DNA from: Thermoanaerobaculia bacterium
GTDB lineage: Bacteria; Acidobacteriota; Thermoanaerobaculia; UBA5066
Length of the DNA: 64,000 nt
Direction: 5' to 3'
Assembly: GCA_022071945.1 (NCBI GenBank)
Contig: JAJVIN010000028.1
Location: 124,001-188,000 of the forward strand
Below are positions 6,412-15,766 of the stretch, in pieces. Position 1 is the first letter of the stretch; every line of letters starts with the position of its first letter. The notes under the pieces are model-generated. The model searched no databases. It was not told the origin of the DNA and saw only the letters and a list, made by a program, of their open reading frames with translations. The translations under genes and the position numbers were made by a program.

Positions 6412-6442
6412 GGGCGCGGGAAAACCCGCGCCCTTTCCTTTT
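6412..6442 (+). terminator. Rho-independent terminator after the Ig-like protein
   Basis: A perfect 9-bp stem (GGGCGCGGG / CCCGCGCCC) closed by an AAAA tetraloop is followed by a pyrimidine-rich tail TTTCCTTTTCC. It lies 27 bases beyond the stop at 6385 and separates this gene from the following two-gene operon. Confidence 0.85.
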
Positions 6443-6472: not shown

Positions 6473-8569
6473 ATGGCACAGGAAAGGGCCGTGACCCTCC
6501 GCCCGGCACGGGGCCGGCCGCAGAGCGTTCCGTTTGGACCGCTCTTGAAACAGGCCTCGCTCGAGTGGACCTATCGCGCGAGAAACCGCGCCCGGTTTTC
6601 CGAGCCGGGCCGGATCGGCCACCTTCCCCGTGAGTCGTGTCAGCGCGCTCTGTCGGGTCTGGGGGTCGACTGGGCGACGCTCGGCCGCTCGCACGCCATC
6701 GAGGTCGTCATCCCCTACGCGGCGGAGGAAGAAGGGTGGGAGGCTCGAGTCTTTCCGTGGGAGTTCGTCCTCGTTTCAGCGTTGAGCCAGCCAGGAGGCC
6801 CTCTCTCGGTGGTGCGAAGCCTGAAGAGAAAACGAGCCACTCTACTCTCGGAGGGAGGACCCGTCCTCATCATCGACAGCGCGCCCCCCGCCGCCAGGGA
6901 GGACCGCGACTTCGAGGCGGAGTGTCAGCTCGTCGCCAGCCTGTTCGAGACCCGCGGGATCGAGCGGCTCACCAATCCCTCGCGCGCCGTCCTGGAGGCG
7001 GAAGTCGCGCGGCTCGAACCGTCGGTCATCCACGTCACCGGGGTCGACAGTCACGAAGCCGAGAAGAGGGGCTACCTGGCGCCCCGACGCCGCCGCAACG
7101 GCCTCTTTCTGGACGGCGAGACCCTGGACGCCCCCGAGCTCGCGGCCGCGCTGACCGCCGCCCCGAAAAAGCCGGCGCTCGTCGTCTTCAATCTCGCCTA
7201 CAGCGCCGCGAGGATCGCGGCCCTGCCGGTCGCCTTCGGCGCGGAGAGCAGCATCGGGTTTCACGACGAGGCCGACGCCGACCTCGCGCTCCTCCTGCTC
7301 TCGAACTTCTATGACTCCCTGATCCGCCAGGGGCGGCCAGCTCTCGGAGCCTTCAGGGCCGCAAGCCTTGCCTCGGGCGCGGTTCCCGCCACGGGCGCCA
7401 CGTTCTGGACCGCGGCGCCCGTTCACTGGCCCTCGACCAGCCCGGAAGAGGGCGAGAGGCTACGTCCCCCGCTGCGGCCCTCCGAGCTCCAACCGTCCGG
7501 TCCCGCGCCCGAAGACCTCGTGAACGTGGTCGCCCGCCCCTTCTCCACGCTCAACTACGCGCGCCTCTACAACGACCGGGACCTCTTCGAGACGTTCCTC
7601 ATCGAGAGGCGAACCGACCGCCCCCTGCACGCGGTCAAGGTCGAGGTGAGCCTCTTTTCGGGCGGGATCTCCCAGCCCTACCTTTCGACCCTCGATCTCG
7701 ATGCCCGGGTCACCGACATCAAGCCGCTCGCAAGGGTTCCCCTCGTCGACCCCGCTCCGCGCAGTTCCTTCGAGAGCCTCCGGACTCTCTTGTCCGTATC
7801 TGTCTTCTGGAGCGGGCTCGAACTCACCCGTGCGAGCTGGTTCGTCACCCTGCCCCCGCCGAACGAGTGGGAGGACGAGCCGTCGGGCTGGCCCCTCCTC
7901 CCGTCCTTCGTCCTTTCCCTGGATCCCTTCGTCACCGCCCTCCTGGAGAGAGCCCGCCGGCTCTTGCGATTCCTGGAGGATGACGCGTCCGCCGGATTCA
8001 CCGGCTACGAACAGCCTTCCGAGGGAGTGGACCGCCAGGTGCAGGCCATCTGGGCCGCCGTCAGCTTCGAGGAGGGCCTGTCCTACTCCCCTCCGCCGCC
8101 CGTCTTCTCGACCACGAGCCAGCGCATTCGAACCCCGTCCCAGATCGCCGCCAGCCGCGCCGGCACGTGCCTCGACCTGGCGCTCCTTTTCGCGGCCTGC
8201 CTGGAAGCCGTCGACCTCTACCCGGTGCTCTTCCTCTTTGCGGGGCACGCCTTCCCGGGCTACTGGCGTTCTAAGGCCGCTCACGACGACTTCAGGACGA
8301 ACCCCTGGGCCGCCGCGGGCATGAATGACAGCGGCAGCGGCGAGGGCCCTCTCGAGGAGGCGTTTCTGGAAGTCCAGACTCGCGTGTTCCAGGGCGACCT
8401 GGTCCCTCTCGAGACCGTCGGCCTGACGCGGCGAGACTCCTTTGGCCAGGGCCGGCGGACGGGACTGTCGAACCTCGCCAGCCTTTCGGGCTTCCAGGCC
8501 CTCGTCGACGTCAGACTCGCCCGCCTCAACGGCATCCTTCCCCTGCCGATCCTCACGAGCCGCACATGA
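6473..8569 (+). CDS. degenerate CHAT domain fused to transglutaminase-like domain
   Basis: 698 residues, no signal peptide. Residues about 60-330 follow the CHAT (caspase/clostripain-like) layout: a FPWEFVLVSA strand, then VLIIDSAPPAAREDRDFEAE, an IHVTGVDSHE strand-turn near 186, LVVFNLAYSAAR near 236, and a final FYDSLIRQGRPALGAFRAA helix. Active CHAT proteases normally have H-x-x-G-H-G and a Cys in N-A-C-E-[ST]; here both catalytic positions appear replaced (V and A), so this half is probably a pseudo-protease. Residues about 545-620 look like a transglutaminase-like Cys protease (SRAGTCLDLALLF, Cys566; FAGHAFPGYW, His592). Its stop overlaps the next start as ATGA. A weak TAGAAT -10-like box is at 6452; no clear ribosome site. 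Confidence 0.65.
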   Translation: MAQERAVTLRPARGRPQSVPFGPLLKQASLEWTYRARNRARFSEPGRIGHLPRESCQRALSGLGVDWATLGRSHAIEVVIPYAAEEEGWEARVFPWEFVLVSALSQPGGPLSVVRSLKRKRATLLSEGGPVLIIDSAPPAAREDRDFEAECQLVASLFETRGIERLTNPSRAVLEAEVARLEPSVIHVTGVDSHEAEKRGYLAPRRRRNGLFLDGETLDAPELAAALTAAPKKPALVVFNLAYSAARIAALPVAFGAESSIGFHDEADADLALLLLSNFYDSLIRQGRPALGAFRAASLASGAVPATGATFWTAAPVHWPSTSPEEGERLRPPLRPSELQPSGPAPEDLVNVVARPFSTLNYARLYNDRDLFETFLIERRTDRPLHAVKVEVSLFSGGISQPYLSTLDLDARVTDIKPLARVPLVDPAPRSSFESLRTLLSVSVFWSGLELTRASWFVTLPPPNEWEDEPSGWPLLPSFVLSLDPFVTALLERARRLLRFLEDDASAGFTGYEQPSEGVDRQVQAIWAAVSFEEGLSYSPPPPVFSTTSQRIRTPSQIAASRAGTCLDLALLFAACLEAVDLYPVLFLFAGHAFPGYWRSKAAHDDFRTNPWAAAGMNDSGSGEGPLEEAFLEVQTRVFQGDLVPLETVGLTRRDSFGQGRRTGLSNLASLSGFQALVDVRLARLNGILPLPILTSRT

Positions 8570-9876
8570 CAGACCAGAAAACCGCCAACCGCGCCCCCGA
8601 GTTTCTCGTCGCCCTCAACAGATCCCTCGACGGTGAAGGCTTCGTCTCGCCGCTTTCGACCCTCCCCGCGGAGGAGGGCTCGACTCTCGGGCAACGCCGG
8701 ACCCGGCCCGGCAAGGAAGACCCCTTCGGCAGCCTCGCCCTCTTGGAAGACGCATCGGGAGTCCTTCGGTGGAGTGATGTGACGGCCCACACCGCCCCCC
8801 TCCCGGGCCGGCGCTCCGAACGGCCCCTGGCTGGCGGGAAGATCCTGCAGCTCAGGAAGTTCGAGCCCCTCGCGCCCTCTCGCCTGACCGGCTTTCTCGA
8901 GGACCTCGACCGGCGGCTCAACCCGCATCTGAACGATTCGGACTCCCGAGTCTCGGAGTTCACCCCGACGGGGCTCGTCCCGGTTTCGGAGGTCGGGGGA
9001 GACGGACGAGTCCTTCTCATCATCCACGGCACCTTCAGCTCGAGCACACCGTATTTCAGTCAGCCCCCGGATTCACCCTGGATGACGTACCTCTCGTCGT
9101 GCCGGAACCGATACTCGCGCGTCCTGGCGTTCGACCACCCGACACTGGCGGCGGCACCCTTCCTCAACGCAATGGCTCTCCACCGCCATTTCTCACGCTT
9201 TCGAGGCGACATCGACATCGTCTGTCACAGCCGTGGCGGGCTCGTCAGCCGGTGGTGGCTCGAGGGACTTCGCCCCCAGAACCTCGGGACGGCTCGGGTC
9301 GTCTTCGTTGGATCTCCACTCACCGGGACGAGCCTCGCGTCACCCGCGCGCTTGAGGGGCGCGCTCAATCTCCTCACGAACCTGGCGAGATCCCTTTGCC
9401 TCGTCGCCGACCTCGCGTCGCTCGCGTCCCCGCTCTTCCTCGTGGTTTCGGGTCTCCTCAGGCTGGTCGCCTCGCTCGGCCCGCTGTCCGAGAAGCTCCC
9501 GTTCCTCGATGCCGGGGTCGCCCTCGTGCCGGGGCTTCATTCCCAGGCACGAGTCGGCAACAACCTCGAGCTCGGCTGCCTCTCCCGGCAGGCACCGGCC
9601 CCGGCCACCTACCACGCCATCACGAGCAACTTCGAGTCCGACGATCCCCTGTGGGCCTTCTGGAAACCCTTCAGGCTCGCGGACAACCTTGCGGGCCACG
9701 TGTTCGACGGAGACAACGACCTGGTGGTCGATACCGCCGCGATGACGCTCGACGGCCTTGCGCAACCGATCCCTCCCGAAAGAAGGCTCGATTTCGGAAC
9801 GAATGGCCGCGTCCATCACACCAACTACTTCCATCAGAAGGCGGCCGTCGACTACCTCGCGAGCGCGCTGGGCTGA
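8566..9876 (+). CDS. alpha/beta hydrolase (lipase/esterase-like)
   Basis: 436 residues, no signal peptide. Residues 1-145 are an unassigned N-terminal region. The hydrolase core has an oxyanion strand VLLIIHGTFSSS (His154), the nucleophile elbow DIVCHSRGG (Ser222), a probable acid in VFDGDNDLVV and a catalytic His in VHHTNYF near the C-terminus. A hydrophobic stretch (about residues 265-310) may form a lid or a membrane-dipping helix. The start overlaps the CHAT-like/TGL gene by 4 bases, so the two are translationally coupled and their products probably act together. Substrate unknown; lipid or ester hydrolysis is inferred from the fold. Confidence 0.8.
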   Translation: MTDQKTANRAPEFLVALNRSLDGEGFVSPLSTLPAEEGSTLGQRRTRPGKEDPFGSLALLEDASGVLRWSDVTAHTAPLPGRRSERPLAGGKILQLRKFEPLAPSRLTGFLEDLDRRLNPHLNDSDSRVSEFTPTGLVPVSEVGGDGRVLLIIHGTFSSSTPYFSQPPDSPWMTYLSSCRNRYSRVLAFDHPTLAAAPFLNAMALHRHFSRFRGDIDIVCHSRGGLVSRWWLEGLRPQNLGTARVVFVGSPLTGTSLASPARLRGALNLLTNLARSLCLVADLASLASPLFLVVSGLLRLVASLGPLSEKLPFLDAGVALVPGLHSQARVGNNLELGCLSRQAPAPATYHAITSNFESDDPLWAFWKPFRLADNLAGHVFDGDNDLVVDTAAMTLDGLAQPIPPERRLDFGTNGRVHHTNYFHQKAAVDYLASALG

Positions 9877-9911: not shown

Positions 9912-10835
9912 TCAGCCCGGCGGGGGCGCCTCGCGCCGGGAGCGGAGGTGCTCCTCCATCTCGGCCAGAGACCGGGGCCAATCCGACTTCAGGAGCCTGG
10001 AGAGCGCCCGGTCGGCGAGGAGCTTGCCTCCCGTCTGGCAGCCAGGACAGTAGTTCACCTCGTTGTCGGCGTACTTGATCCGCTGGACCGCCGCCCCGCA
10101 GACCGGGCAGGGTTGCTGAAAGCGGCCGTGCACCGCCATCCCTTCCCGAAAGGCCGTGACCTTTTCGGGAAACCCCTCTCCCACTTCTCTCCGGAGGCTC
10201 GCCGTGGAGAGCTCCAGGACGTCGCGGCAGGCGTGGTAGAGGCGAAGGGACTCTTCTTCCGAGAGGCGGCCTGTCAACGCGACCGGAGAGAGCCGCGCCT
10301 TGTGGAGGATCTCGTCTGAATAGGCGTTCCCGATCCCGTCGAAAAGGGTGGGATCTGTCAGGGCGCGCTTGAGCGTGTGGCTCTCGCTCCGAAGGACCGC
10401 GGCGAATTCGGAAGGCGCCGCCCGGAAGACGTCCAGTCCGCCCGGGTCGTGTGAGGCGAGGGAAGCTTCATCCTCGATGAGCCGCATCCAGGCTCTCTTC
10501 TTCGGGCTCGCCTCGGTGAAGAGAATCGTAGCGTGGTCGAAATCGAACGCCGCCAGCCCCACCTTCGCCGGGAGCTTCTCTCCCCGCTCGCGGAGCCGCA
10601 GCCGCCCCGCGATCATCAGGTGCAGGAGCACGAAACGCCCGTTGGCGAACGCGAGAGCGATCCGCTTCCCGACTCTCTGGCACCCGGTCATCCGCTGGGC
10701 CGTCACGCTCGACAGCGGCGGGACGACGGACCTGAGGACGAAGGGACTCCCGAGCCTGATCTTCTCGAGCGTGTGCCCAGAAACGAGCGCTTCGAGACGC
10801 TCGACGTAGATGGTGACGTCGGGGAGTTCGGGCAT
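9912..10835 (-). CDS. Fpg/Nei family DNA glycosylase
   Basis: 307 residues. It begins MPELPDVTIYVE, the catalytic Pro2/Glu3 N-terminus of formamidopyrimidine-DNA glycosylases and endonuclease VIII. The helix-two-turn-helix region (FDGIGNAYSDEIL) follows near residue 165 and a C-terminal zinc finger has CPVC and CPGC pairs (about 239-262). The family removes oxidised bases and nicks at abasic sites. The PELPDV variant and the extra 35-residue tail make it a divergent member; mutM or nei cannot be chosen from sequence alone. It is convergent with the hydrolase at 8566. Confidence 0.9.
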   Translation of the reverse strand: MPELPDVTIYVERLEALVSGHTLEKIRLGSPFVLRSVVPPLSSVTAQRMTGCQRVGKRIALAFANGRFVLLHLMIAGRLRLRERGEKLPAKVGLAAFDFDHATILFTEASPKKRAWMRLIEDEASLASHDPGGLDVFRAAPSEFAAVLRSESHTLKRALTDPTLFDGIGNAYSDEILHKARLSPVALTGRLSEEESLRLYHACRDVLELSTASLRREVGEGFPEKVTAFREGMAVHGRFQQPCPVCGAAVQRIKYADNEVNYCPGCQTGGKLLADRALSRLLKSDWPRSLAEMEEHLRSRREAPPPG

Positions 10836-11848: not shown

Positions 11849-14800
11849 ATGCCACGACGATCCCTACCGGCCCCGCTGACCCTTCTGTGGAAGCGGCGCA
11901 CCTCGATGGGGGGCACGGGGATTCTCCTACTCGCGGCCCTTCTGGTCGCGCCCGGCGTTCAGGCAGAGGGGACGCGGCGCTCTCTTTCAGAGATGTCCCT
12001 GACCTCCTGGCCGGACGGATTGCCCCAGAACACCGTCCCCGTGCTCCTGCAAGACCGGCTGGGGTATCTCTGGATCGGGACGTACGGAGGCCTGGTCCGC
12101 TTCAACGGAATCACCTTCGCGGTCCACGACCGGAGCCAGTACCCGGACCTGCCCAGTAACTCGATCCTCAGCCTTCACGAGGACTCTTCTGGGGCGATCT
12201 GGATCGGCACGCGGGGAGGCGTGGCCATCCTGAAAGACGGGAGGGTCGCGTCCTTTTCACTCAACTCCTCGCTACCGGACCGGCAGGTCCTGGCGCTTGC
12301 CGGGGATGGCTCATCCGGTGTCTGGATCGGGACCCGAGGGGGTCTCTGTCGCGCCGAGGGCTCGCGGCTCGATTGCTTCACACAGGAGGCGGGTCTCCCC
12401 GCCTCACCGGTCCACGGCCTGAGCCGGGATCGGTCCGGACGCCTCTGGATCGCCTACGCCGGGGCCATCTTCAGCCACGCGCGCGGAGCCTTCAGGCTGG
12501 AGAGCGAGTCGATTCCGGGCCACTCGTTCTCTTCAATCGCCGTTGCGGAAGACGGAACCGTCTTCTCCGCGACTCGCGATGCCGGAATCGCGAGACTGTC
12601 CCGGGGGGTCTGGACCTTCCTGAAACCGCCGGGAGACTCGTCCGTGCCGCCGTTTCAGGCTCTGGCCATCGACCGGTCCGGACGCCTGTGGGCGGGAACC
12701 GAGGGTGATGGGATCTGCCTCTTCAGCGATCCGGCGCAAAGAGCCCCCGCGGGAGAGTGCCGGGGGACCGCGACGGGCCTGCCCAGCGCGGTCGTGCGGA
12801 GCATTCTCGAGGACCAGGAAGGCACTGTCTGGATCGGAACGACGGCGGGGATCACCGCTCTCAGGAGCCCTCCGTTTGTCGCCTACACGCGGGCGAACGG
12901 GCTCGTCTCCCAGAGCGTTCGAAGCGTTCTTCAGAGCCGGGACGGACGAATCTGGGCCGGCACCGAGGGAGGCGGCGTGGCGGTCAAGGAGGGGGCGTTC
13001 TTCCGGCCCGTAGAGGCCCTCACCGGCGCGGTCCGCTCCCTCGCCGAGGACGCCGCGGGAAACATCTGGGCGGGCTCCTTCGCCCGGGGCGTCACGAGAT
13101 TCGACCCCAAGAAGAAAACGACCGTCACGTACACCACCGCCAGCGGTCTCTCGTCGGACTCGGTGACCAGCATGGTGGCGGCCCGGAACGGCACCCTCTG
13201 GGTCGGGGGCAGCACCGGACTCGACCGGGTCGAAGGAAACCGGTTCGTCTCCGTGCCCCTCGTGTCGACCCCCGCGGGACGGCCGGAGCCCCTCGCGGTC
13301 TTCACCCTCCACGAAGACAGGGCGGGAACCATCTGGGCAGGGACGGCCCGGGGGCTCTATCGGGTCGAGGCGGACCGGTCCACGAATTTCCGGCAACCGC
13401 TACCGGTCGCGGACGTTTACGCCATCCTCGACCTCGGCGGCGGCGCTTTGCTGACCGGCGGCGAGAGCGGGCTGCACGTCTTCGAAAGCGGGCGCTTCAC
13501 CCCGGTGAGGACCCGGGAAGGTCCCCTCGTTCAGCCCGTTCTCCACCTGCTCGAGGACGAGAAGGGCGATATCTGGCTCAGCACCAGCCAGGGGATTCTC
13601 CGGATCCGCCGAAAGGAACTGGAGGCGTTCGTCAAGGATGACGATCCTGTCTCCAGCCCTGAGGGCTTCACGATCTCGGACGGCCTGCCCAGCCTGAACT
13701 GCAGCGGCGCCAGCTTTCCCGCGGCCATCAGAGCGCAAGACGGCAAGCTCTGGTTTGCGACGAATCGCGGACTGGCGGCGGTGGCCCCGGGCCAGCCGTC
13801 CGAGCGGCGTCCGCCGGCAATCCGAATCAGTGGCATCACGGTCGACGGCCTCCAGCAAGAAGCTCGGCCGGCCGGCGTCATCATCGAGCCTGATGGCCGG
13901 AACCTCGAGATCCTCTACGACGCCCTGAGCTTCGTGGCGCCGCCGGAACTCCAGTTCCGTTATCGCCTCGACGGACTCGAGTCGGCGTGGACCGAGGCGG
14001 GATCCCGCCGCTCGGCCTTCTACACGTCCTTGCCGCCCGGCACCTACACGTTCCTCGTCACCGCCCGCCGGCTGGGCGGAGCGTGGGGCCGGTCCAGTGC
14101 CGAGATGAGGCTCGTCGTTCGGCCGCGCTTCACTCAGACGCGCCTCTTTTTCGGGCTGGTCTCGTTCGGCATCATCGCCGCGGCCTTCGCCCTCTACCGG
14201 GTCCGGGTGAATCAACTGAAGAGGCGTGCCGTCGAGCTCGAGAACACGGTCGAGCGCCGCACGGAAGAGCTCAGAGAAGCTCGGGACGAAGCCGAGGAGC
14301 GGCTGCGGCTCTTCAGCCAGCTCCTCGACACCGCGCCGGACTGCATCCTCCTCTCCGACATGAACGGCAGGATCGTGGTGGCCAACCACCAGACCGAGAG
14401 CATCTTCGGCTACGAGCCGGCCGAGCTGATCGGCCAGCGTGTCGAGATTCTCGTCCCAGGAGAGCTGCGGGCGCGGCACGCCGAACACCGGGAACGCTTC
14501 CGCAAGGCGCCGGGTGTACGCCCCATGGGTGCCGGCCTCGAGCTTCACGGACAGCGCAAGGACGGTTCCCACTTCCCTGTCGAGATCAGCCTGAGCCCGA
14601 TGGAGACCCAGGACGGCGTCCTCGTCACGAGCATCATCCGGGACGTGACGGATAGGCGCCGGGCGGAAGAGCGGCTGCGCCTGCAGGCGGTCGCCCTGGA
14701 TTCCGCGGCCAACGGAATCGTCATCACCGACCGGTCGGGCACCATCCGATGGGTGAATCCGGCCTTCACCACTCTGACCGGTTACTCCAGCCAGGAAGTG

Positions 14801-15766
14801 GTGGGAAAGAACCCCCGGATCCTGAGGTCCGGGATTCACGATGACGCCTTCTACCAGAACATGTGGCTGACGGTCCTCTCGGGAAAGACCTGGTTCGGGG
14901 AGACGACGAACCGGCGCAAGGACGGGACTCTCTACACCGAGGAACAGACGATCGCCCCCGTCAGAAACGAGCTGGGCGAGATCTCTCACTTCGTCGCGAT
15001 CAAGCAGGACGTCACGTCCCGAAAGGAATCGGAGCGGCTCCGCGAGTCGATGGCCCGGACGATGGTGCATGACCTCAGGAATCCCCTCTCCGTCATCCAC
15101 GGGTCCCTCGGGATCCTCAGGACCGAAATGGAGAACCCGGATCCGGAGGAGCGGACCTGGACACTGGAAACACTGGAGCGCGCCAGCCGCCAGATGCTTG
15201 ACCTTGTCAACGGAATCCTCGACGTCGAGCGTCTCAAGCAGGGAGACCTTCCGCTCGAGAAGTCCCTCTTCGACCTCACGGAGGTCCTCGAGACCGTCCT
15301 CCTGCTCCAGGCCCCCCTGGCGGCGGCAAAGGAGCAGTCCCTCCTCGGAGAGAGCGAGAAGAACCTGCCCCCCGTCGAGGCCGACCGTACCCTGATCGAG
15401 CGCGTCCTGCAGAACCTGGTCGGCAACGCGATCAAGTTCACTCCCGAGAAGGGCACGATCCGGGTGACCGTGGCGGGGGGACCCGAAGGCGTCACCGTGG
15501 CCGTGGCGGACAGCGGCGCCGGAATTCCGGAGGAGGTTCGCAGGAGGCTCTTCAGCCCCTTCATCACGGGACGGCAGAAAGAGAGCGGGAGCGGCCTCGG
15601 GCTGGCCTTCTGCCGCCTGGCCGTCGAGGCTCACAAGGGCCGCATCTCGGCAGAGACGACGGCCGACCGCGGCACGGTGTTCACCTTCACTCTGCCCGCG
15701 GCCGAGCCCGCCAGGAGTTCAAACGAGGGCGGCGGACTGGCCCCCGAACCGGCGCGTCACGGGTAA
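11849..15766 (+). CDS. hybrid propeller/PAS sensor histidine kinase
   Basis: 1305 residues. After an N-terminal signal/anchor, residues about 45-690 hold many two-component-regulator propeller blades with repeated G-x-[IL]-W-[IVA]-G-T motifs (LGYLWIGTYGGLVRF, GAIWIGTRGGVA, GTVWIGTTAGI). A Y_Y_Y-type beta-sandwich follows (FRYRLDGLESAWTEAG), then one transmembrane helix near 767 (FFGLVSFGIIAAAFALYRV), a short coiled coil and two PAS domains (about 825-945 and 945-1065). The HisKA H-box is MVHDLRNPLSVIHG near 1071, and the ATPase domain has LQNLVGNAIKF, VADSGAGIP and GSGLGLAFC. No receiver domain is present. It probably senses a periplasmic ligand (often glycans in this class). Its 3' end overlaps the convergent Fe-S gene by 48 bases. 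Confidence 0.92.
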   Translation: MPRRSLPAPLTLLWKRRTSMGGTGILLLAALLVAPGVQAEGTRRSLSEMSLTSWPDGLPQNTVPVLLQDRLGYLWIGTYGGLVRFNGITFAVHDRSQYPDLPSNSILSLHEDSSGAIWIGTRGGVAILKDGRVASFSLNSSLPDRQVLALAGDGSSGVWIGTRGGLCRAEGSRLDCFTQEAGLPASPVHGLSRDRSGRLWIAYAGAIFSHARGAFRLESESIPGHSFSSIAVAEDGTVFSATRDAGIARLSRGVWTFLKPPGDSSVPPFQALAIDRSGRLWAGTEGDGICLFSDPAQRAPAGECRGTATGLPSAVVRSILEDQEGTVWIGTTAGITALRSPPFVAYTRANGLVSQSVRSVLQSRDGRIWAGTEGGGVAVKEGAFFRPVEALTGAVRSLAEDAAGNIWAGSFARGVTRFDPKKKTTVTYTTASGLSSDSVTSMVAARNGTLWVGGSTGLDRVEGNRFVSVPLVSTPAGRPEPLAVFTLHEDRAGTIWAGTARGLYRVEADRSTNFRQPLPVADVYAILDLGGGALLTGGESGLHVFESGRFTPVRTREGPLVQPVLHLLEDEKGDIWLSTSQGILRIRRKELEAFVKDDDPVSSPEGFTISDGLPSLNCSGASFPAAIRAQDGKLWFATNRGLAAVAPGQPSERRPPAIRISGITVDGLQQEARPAGVIIEPDGRNLEILYDALSFVAPPELQFRYRLDGLESAWTEAGSRRSAFYTSLPPGTYTFLVTARRLGGAWGRSSAEMRLVVRPRFTQTRLFFGLVSFGIIAAAFALYRVRVNQLKRRAVELENTVERRTEELREARDEAEERLRLFSQLLDTAPDCILLSDMNGRIVVANHQTESIFGYEPAELIGQRVEILVPGELRARHAEHRERFRKAPGVRPMGAGLELHGQRKDGSHFPVEISLSPMETQDGVLVTSIIRDVTDRRRAEERLRLQAVALDSAANGIVITDRSGTIRWVNPAFTTLTGYSSQEVVGKNPRILRSGIHDDAFYQNMWLTVLSGKTWFGETTNRRKDGTLYTEEQTIAPVRNELGEISHFVAIKQDVTSRKESERLRESMARTMVHDLRNPLSVIHGSLGILRTEMENPDPEERTWTLETLERASRQMLDLVNGILDVERLKQGDLPLEKSLFDLTEVLETVLLLQAPLAAAKEQSLLGESEKNLPPVEADRTLIERVLQNLVGNAIKFTPEKGTIRVTVAGGPEGVTVAVADSGAGIPEEVRRRLFSPFITGRQKESGSGLGLAFCRLAVEAHKGRISAETTADRGTVFTFTLPAAEPARSSNEGGGLAPEPARHG

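Follow-up and report, generated by a model that had tools for sequence, protein, structure and literature searches.

A CHAT domain whose catalytic residues look replaced, joined to a transglutaminase-like (TGL) domain and encoded directly ahead of an alpha/beta hydrolase, raises the question of which of these parts still act as enzymes and whether the two genes work as one unit. The original prediction, read from the window (the whole 64,000-nucleotide stretch of Thermoanaerobaculia DNA analyzed here), had described two genes that share an ATGA overlap and stand isolated, and both points are confirmed: the two open reading frames overlap as stated, a strong terminator (a stem with a 4-nt loop, followed by TTTCCTTTTC) lies upstream, and a convergent Fpg-type gene lies downstream (Table 1). 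Many of the homologous loci have the identical 4-nt overlap between both genes, so that translational coupling appears frequent, and because both the arrangement and the key residues recur at 28 further loci, they are more than chance. The genome (6.17 Mb in 69 contigs) carries one copy of the pair, which has as neighbors in the window genes for an Fe-S protein, an unknown protein, Fpg, an M23 peptidase, and a sensor kinase. The Reg_prop/Y_Y_Y/PAS histidine kinase at 11849-15766 (1305 aa) is an ordinary hybrid-type sensor.

Table 1. Features of the two-gene locus and its boundaries (positions in the window)
Feature	Position	Strand	Remarks
Intrinsic terminator of the preceding gene, setting the pair apart	6412..6433	+	9 G-C pairs, loop 4, T-rich tail
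Gene 1, pseudo-CHAT/beta-sandwich/TGL protein	6473..8569	+	698 aa; homologues at 28 loci
Pseudo-CHAT domain, residues about 1-330	6473..7462	+	hhalign; best Foldseek and hmmsearch match 8tl0 SAVED-CHAT
Degenerate CHAT His motif, H187-V-T-G190-V191-D192	7031..7048	+	V191 instead of catalytic His
Degenerate CHAT Cys motif, N240-L-A242-Y-S244-A-A-R247	7190..7213	+	A242 instead of catalytic Cys
Beta-sandwich domain, residues about 346-465	7508..7867	+	AlphaFold2 strands; common to ProA N-terminus
TGL domain, residues 466-698	7868..8566	+	PNGase and TG2 fold matches
Predicted TGL catalytic residues Cys566, His592, Glu647	8168-8170, 8246-8248, 8411-8413	+	each 29/29
ATGA stop/start overlap, gene 1 to gene 2	8566..8569	+	read in sequence
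Gene 2, DUF7379 alpha/beta hydrolase	8566..9876	+	436 aa
Arg44-Arg45, predicted disordered linker	8695..8700	+	R44 26/27, R45 25/27; low pLDDT 25-50
Arg82-Arg83, predicted disordered linker	8809..8814	+	27/27; low pLDDT 74-88
Predicted hydrolase triad Ser222, Asp385, His418	9229-9231, 9718-9720, 9817-9819	+	27/27 each
Predicted hydrophobic lid of hydrolase, residues 258-325	9337..9540	+	hydrophobicity across homologues
Fpg-type DNA glycosylase, convergent; boundary, outside the unit	9912..10835	-	PF01149, PF06831

The first gene product had been read as a CHAT fold with replaced catalytic His and Cys, joined to a TGL-like domain that keeps Cys566 and His592, and each part of this reading stood up to analysis. 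Profile-profile comparison with intact CHAT domains gave 97.5% (hhalign, E 7.6e-12), the family profile matched the SAVED-CHAT structure 8TL0 at the sequence level (hmmsearch, E 5.3e-6), and the same structure was the top PDB match of the predicted fold (Foldseek, E 2e-6). Pfam gave no CHAT match on the window protein alone; PF12770 was found at E<=0.01 in 8 of 22 homologues, and the split Bradyrhizobium CHAT gene at locus L088 exceeds the Pfam CHAT cut-off. In the AlphaFold2 model (pLDDT 81.9, pTM 0.55), an alpha/beta domain is followed by a beta-sandwich and then by a TGL part that is again alpha/beta; in view of the pTM, the domain placements are more reliable than the inter-domain arrangement. 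Intact CHAT domains carry H-x-x-G-H-G around the catalytic His and N-A-C-E-S around the catalytic Cys; IHVTGVD and FNLAYS occupy these positions in the profile-profile alignment and in the alignment to 8TL0 alike. Across 29 aligned sequences, which include close relatives (five Thiodiazotropha-type and seven Bradyrhizobium), the catalytic His is lost in all, with V, F, I, L, C, or M in column 191, and the Cys is lost in 27, its position being occupied by Y in 19 and by Cys in 2. The motifs survive as remnants, with H187 present in 29/29, G190 invariant, D192 in 28/29, S244 in 29/29, and R247 in 28/29, and the excess of conserved positions around the pseudo-active site is marginal (Fisher p 0.049). 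Judged by this alignment, the CHAT domain is a pseudo-enzyme, and the loss of the His-Cys dyad is family-wide rather than a single case. Two of the sequences (L079:7665-10181 and L083:7731-10004) keep the CHAT Cys (SSCFS) and are without the His; their contigs stop before the hydrolase.

The TGL domain is the most constrained part of the protein, because 64 of its 233 positions are at least 90% conserved, compared with 27 of 330 in CHAT and 12 of 120 in the beta-sandwich (counts on the 21 sequences left after near-duplicate removal). Equivalents of Cys566, His592, and Glu647, the last being the likely third catalytic residue, are also found in ProA-type and NACHT-type relatives. The only Pfam signal on the window protein, PF04473, is sub-threshold, and it reaches E<=0.01 in 10 of 22 homologues. 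PNGase and transglutaminase 2 rank below 8TL0 among the Foldseek matches, those to the TGL part being weak, and residues 361-695 align with positions 1-316 of the NCBIfam profile for anti-phage ProA (NF058533, E 4.7e-50, 170.2 bits). TGL folds have transglutaminases and amidases among their members too; with its conserved triad, the domain would be the active thiol enzyme of the protein, and proteolysis is its most likely activity.

The second protein belongs to DUF7379 (PF24096, 111.2 bits against a cut-off of 33) and keeps the complete Ser222-Asp-His set that had been proposed for it. Its model is of modest confidence (pLDDT 69.3) and matches lipases, esterases, and thioesterases, the best being the lipase BlEst2; the most hydrophobic 19-residue stretch falls within the predicted lid in 26 of 27 homologues. 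The two Arg-Arg pairs in the predicted disordered linkers are possible cleavage or binding sites, and these Arg-rich linkers may equally have a different role. No recognizable sensor, NTPase switch, or nucleic-acid-binding domain was found in either protein.

That the pair is conserved, as the original prediction implied, is borne out by its recurrence. A single-protein scan of genome contigs found no relatives, whereas the alignment-based scan returned 37 loci, 28 of them with CHAT and TGL, a number that is a lower bound given a scan built on two short peptide patterns. The 28 loci fall in Gemmatimonadota, Acidobacteriota, Planctomycetota, Verrucomicrobia, and Proteobacteria, and the hydrolase gene lies immediately downstream in 26 of the 26 whose contig continues (L079 and L083 are left out of this count), so the pairing appears obligate. 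It is limited to the close family, because a CHAT-TGL fusion at L006:9048-12247 (G035:C11), with a NACEAGG Cys motif and no recognizable His motif, has no hydrolase gene alongside and is instead overlapped by a 326-aa gene without a Pfam match; the fusion would thus be older or looser than the pair. In five Bradyrhizobium loci (L088-L092), CHAT and TGL are two adjacent genes, and the domains are therefore separable. The trees of CHAT, TGL, and hydrolase agree (distance r 0.71-0.76, 0/2000 permutations), an agreement that co-inheritance would produce but that a common history of the species can also account for. Of the 149 genomes that represent the class, one has a full-length match; a count by the hydrolase gave 3 among the 396 genomes sampled from the phylum; and the phyla are interleaved in a tree with weak deep support. 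The pair is likely to have spread horizontally.

The hydrolase family is linked to caspase-fold domains elsewhere as well, and 8 of 12 other DUF7379 loci have a CHAT or caspase domain, fused or beside. CHAT is fused to DUF7379 in L055, L057, L063, L064, and, by annotation, L065; L060 and L061 carry a fusion to caspase C14; and in L059, the gene beside the DUF7379 gene encodes a CHAT protein. At L062, the adjoining gene encodes an M4 metallopeptidase, and no CHAT/caspase-type partner was found at L054, L056, or L058. Such fusions (e.g. Ruegeria pomeroyi WP_051420469.1) resemble our pair in combining this hydrolase family with a caspase-fold domain and differ from it in that they have no TGL and that the CHAT or caspase domain keeps its motifs at L055, L057, L060, L061, and L064. 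A comparable arrangement has been described for VMAP (MoxR-vWA) ternary systems, in which the gene of an alpha/beta hydrolase always adjoins the caspase components; of the caspases in the effector position, about 70% are inactive (Kaur et al. 2020, PMC7159879). The pair shares with these systems a caspase-superfamily domain consistently beside a hydrolase of the alpha/beta type and the frequent inactivity of some caspase domains; among DUF7379 relatives, the likeness extends to TCAD7 in L055 and TPR-S in L063. The pair differs in having a dead, TGL-fused CHAT and in being a stand-alone unit of two genes, with no MoxR, vWA, or VMAP genes among its neighbors in the window. With SAVED-CHAT (8TL0, the top match by profile and by structure) and the TPR-CHAT of Craspase, it has the CHAT fold in common, but its CHAT His is always and its Cys nearly always gone, and it has no SAVED or TPR domain. 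Identity with the TPR-CHAT of type III-E CRISPR was considered and rejected, positions 1-30000 of the window holding no CRISPR-like direct repeats.

On the TGL side, the closest described relative is ProA, a giant helicase-nuclease with the TGL module at its N-terminus. The beta-sandwich/TGL module of protein 1 has the identical Cys, His, and Glu, but in place of DUF4011, helicase, and nuclease, the protein has a pseudo-CHAT at its N-terminus, and the hydrolase is encoded separately; its 170.2 bits stay below the 1500-bit cut-off of the family, whose TGL-DUF4011-helicase-nuclease architecture was seen in L008. Giants of this kind, combining TGL, an SF1 helicase, and a Vsr-type nuclease, have been described by Anantharaman et al., who suggest a proteolytic role for TGL (PMC3710099). 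The literature search found no paper on DUF7379 or on a CHAT-TGL plus hydrolase pair, no description of caspase-fold/hydrolase and TGL ingredients in combination, and no origin for the ProA name. Among the bacterial conflict or cell-death modules built from a protease and a hydrolase, the pair looks like a version that has not been described.

On the strength of these comparisons, our preferred reading, to which we give a probability of roughly 40%, is that the two genes encode one effector module in which TGL has replaced the dead CHAT domain as the working thiol enzyme and acts together with the hydrolase or upon it. The CHAT domain would no longer cut and would be retained as a platform for binding or assembly, its former pocket (H187, G190, D192, S244, R247) being re-used, and it may be the sensor that sees or relays the trigger. 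The target of the TGL domain, most likely a protease, would then be either the hydrolase, where the Arg-Arg linkers may be the site of action, or some other protein, and the hydrolase, lipase-like with its lid, would attack a lipid or a different ester substrate, leading to growth arrest or cell death, so that the unit would be a stress or anti-invader effector. Alternatively, TGL and hydrolase may be parallel effectors that attack protein and lipid, both kept together and restrained by pseudo-CHAT until release, with no activation of one by the other. This is rather unlikely, yet it would explain why both enzymes keep full triads across the homologues, and TGL is indeed fused to unrelated partners (helicase-nuclease, NACHT) without a DUF7379 hydrolase; the presence of the hydrolase wherever the contig continues and the tight overlap, on the other hand, would be explained at least equally well if one partner were the substrate or activator of the other, and the conserved Arg-Arg linkers of the hydrolase also speak against it.

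Whether an effector module of this kind serves defense is a separate matter. The original prediction had expected enrichment near defense genes, and this was not supported: no PADLOC-DB 2.0.0 profile matched either protein up to E 1, no neighbor of the pair in the window had a PADLOC match, and 97 flanking proteins of the other loci gave scattered matches. A defense island was rejected, as the matches that were traced are generic (a Ser/Thr kinase as PD-T4-6/mad6, a RecQ-type helicase as DpdF, and a weak P-loop as QatA); PtuA, HerA, and mad2 matches among the 97 proteins were not assigned to a locus, and the flank scan stands as an absence of defense-island signal rather than a formal test against controls. 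Searches of plasmids, phages, and viral contigs returned TGL/ProA-type matches and no copy of the pair; TGL-module relatives at L103-L105 (IMG/VR), on contigs classed as viral, are likewise without it. What speaks for a defense role is the company that the domains keep. The fullest scenario, an immune or cell-death system that stands alone with its two genes and has spread horizontally, is doubtful; in it, the dead caspase-like domain would be the sensor, and the TGL protease, in place of the caspase, would turn on a lipase harming the membrane of its own cell. The absence of defense neighbors and of mobile copies, together with housekeeping-looking neighbors in most loci, would suit a physiological module for protein or envelope quality control, lipid remodeling, or stress response with no link to invaders, its patchiness being due to gene loss and transfer; we regard this as unlikely, given how rare the pair is in the class and in the hydrolase-based phylum sample, the interleaving of phyla in the tree (its deep support being weak), and the membership of its domain families in described conflict systems (PMC7159879, PMC3710099). 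It is very improbable that TGL is a true transglutaminase or amidase cross-linking or deamidating a target shown by pseudo-CHAT, with the hydrolase handling the product or a linked lipid. A beta-sandwich followed by a catalytic core, as in TG2 and Protein 4.2, and PNGase among the fold matches speak for it; against it stand the weakness of the matches to the TGL part and the interpretation, made without assays, of TGL in related conflict proteins as peptidases (PMC3710099, PMC7159879).

If the effector-module reading is true, the pair would represent a clean replacement of a protease in bacterial conflict systems, in which the caspase fold stays beside the hydrolase and the fused TGL takes over catalysis. 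It would also make two questions testable, namely the function of alpha/beta hydrolases paired with caspase-fold domains and the use of pseudo-CHAT domains as sensors or scaffolds, because the unit is small (two genes), is found in cultured Bradyrhizobium and Tahibacter, and allows point mutations for which the predicted outcomes are clear. For the N-terminal module of ProA, which is poorly understood, the pair provides a second, simpler context.

Several of the related loci show further combinations of the same parts. At L061:3457-8150 (G376:C59), the C14-DUF7379 gene overlaps a clostripain (C11) gene, bringing together two caspase-clan proteases and one hydrolase; at L060:3789-11821 (G273:C38), a caspase-nSTAND1 gene lies near the C14-DUF7379 fusion gene; and at L063:4081-10044 (G360:C40), a single 1987-aa frame matches CHAT and the TPR-S sensor domain as well as DUF7379 and other alpha/beta hydrolases. 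At L009:5094-11085 (G083:C33), the gene for a TGL-NACHT protein of 1520 aa, with the triad kept, overlaps a gene for an LCAT-type lipase, which is a second, independent pairing of TGL with a lipase.
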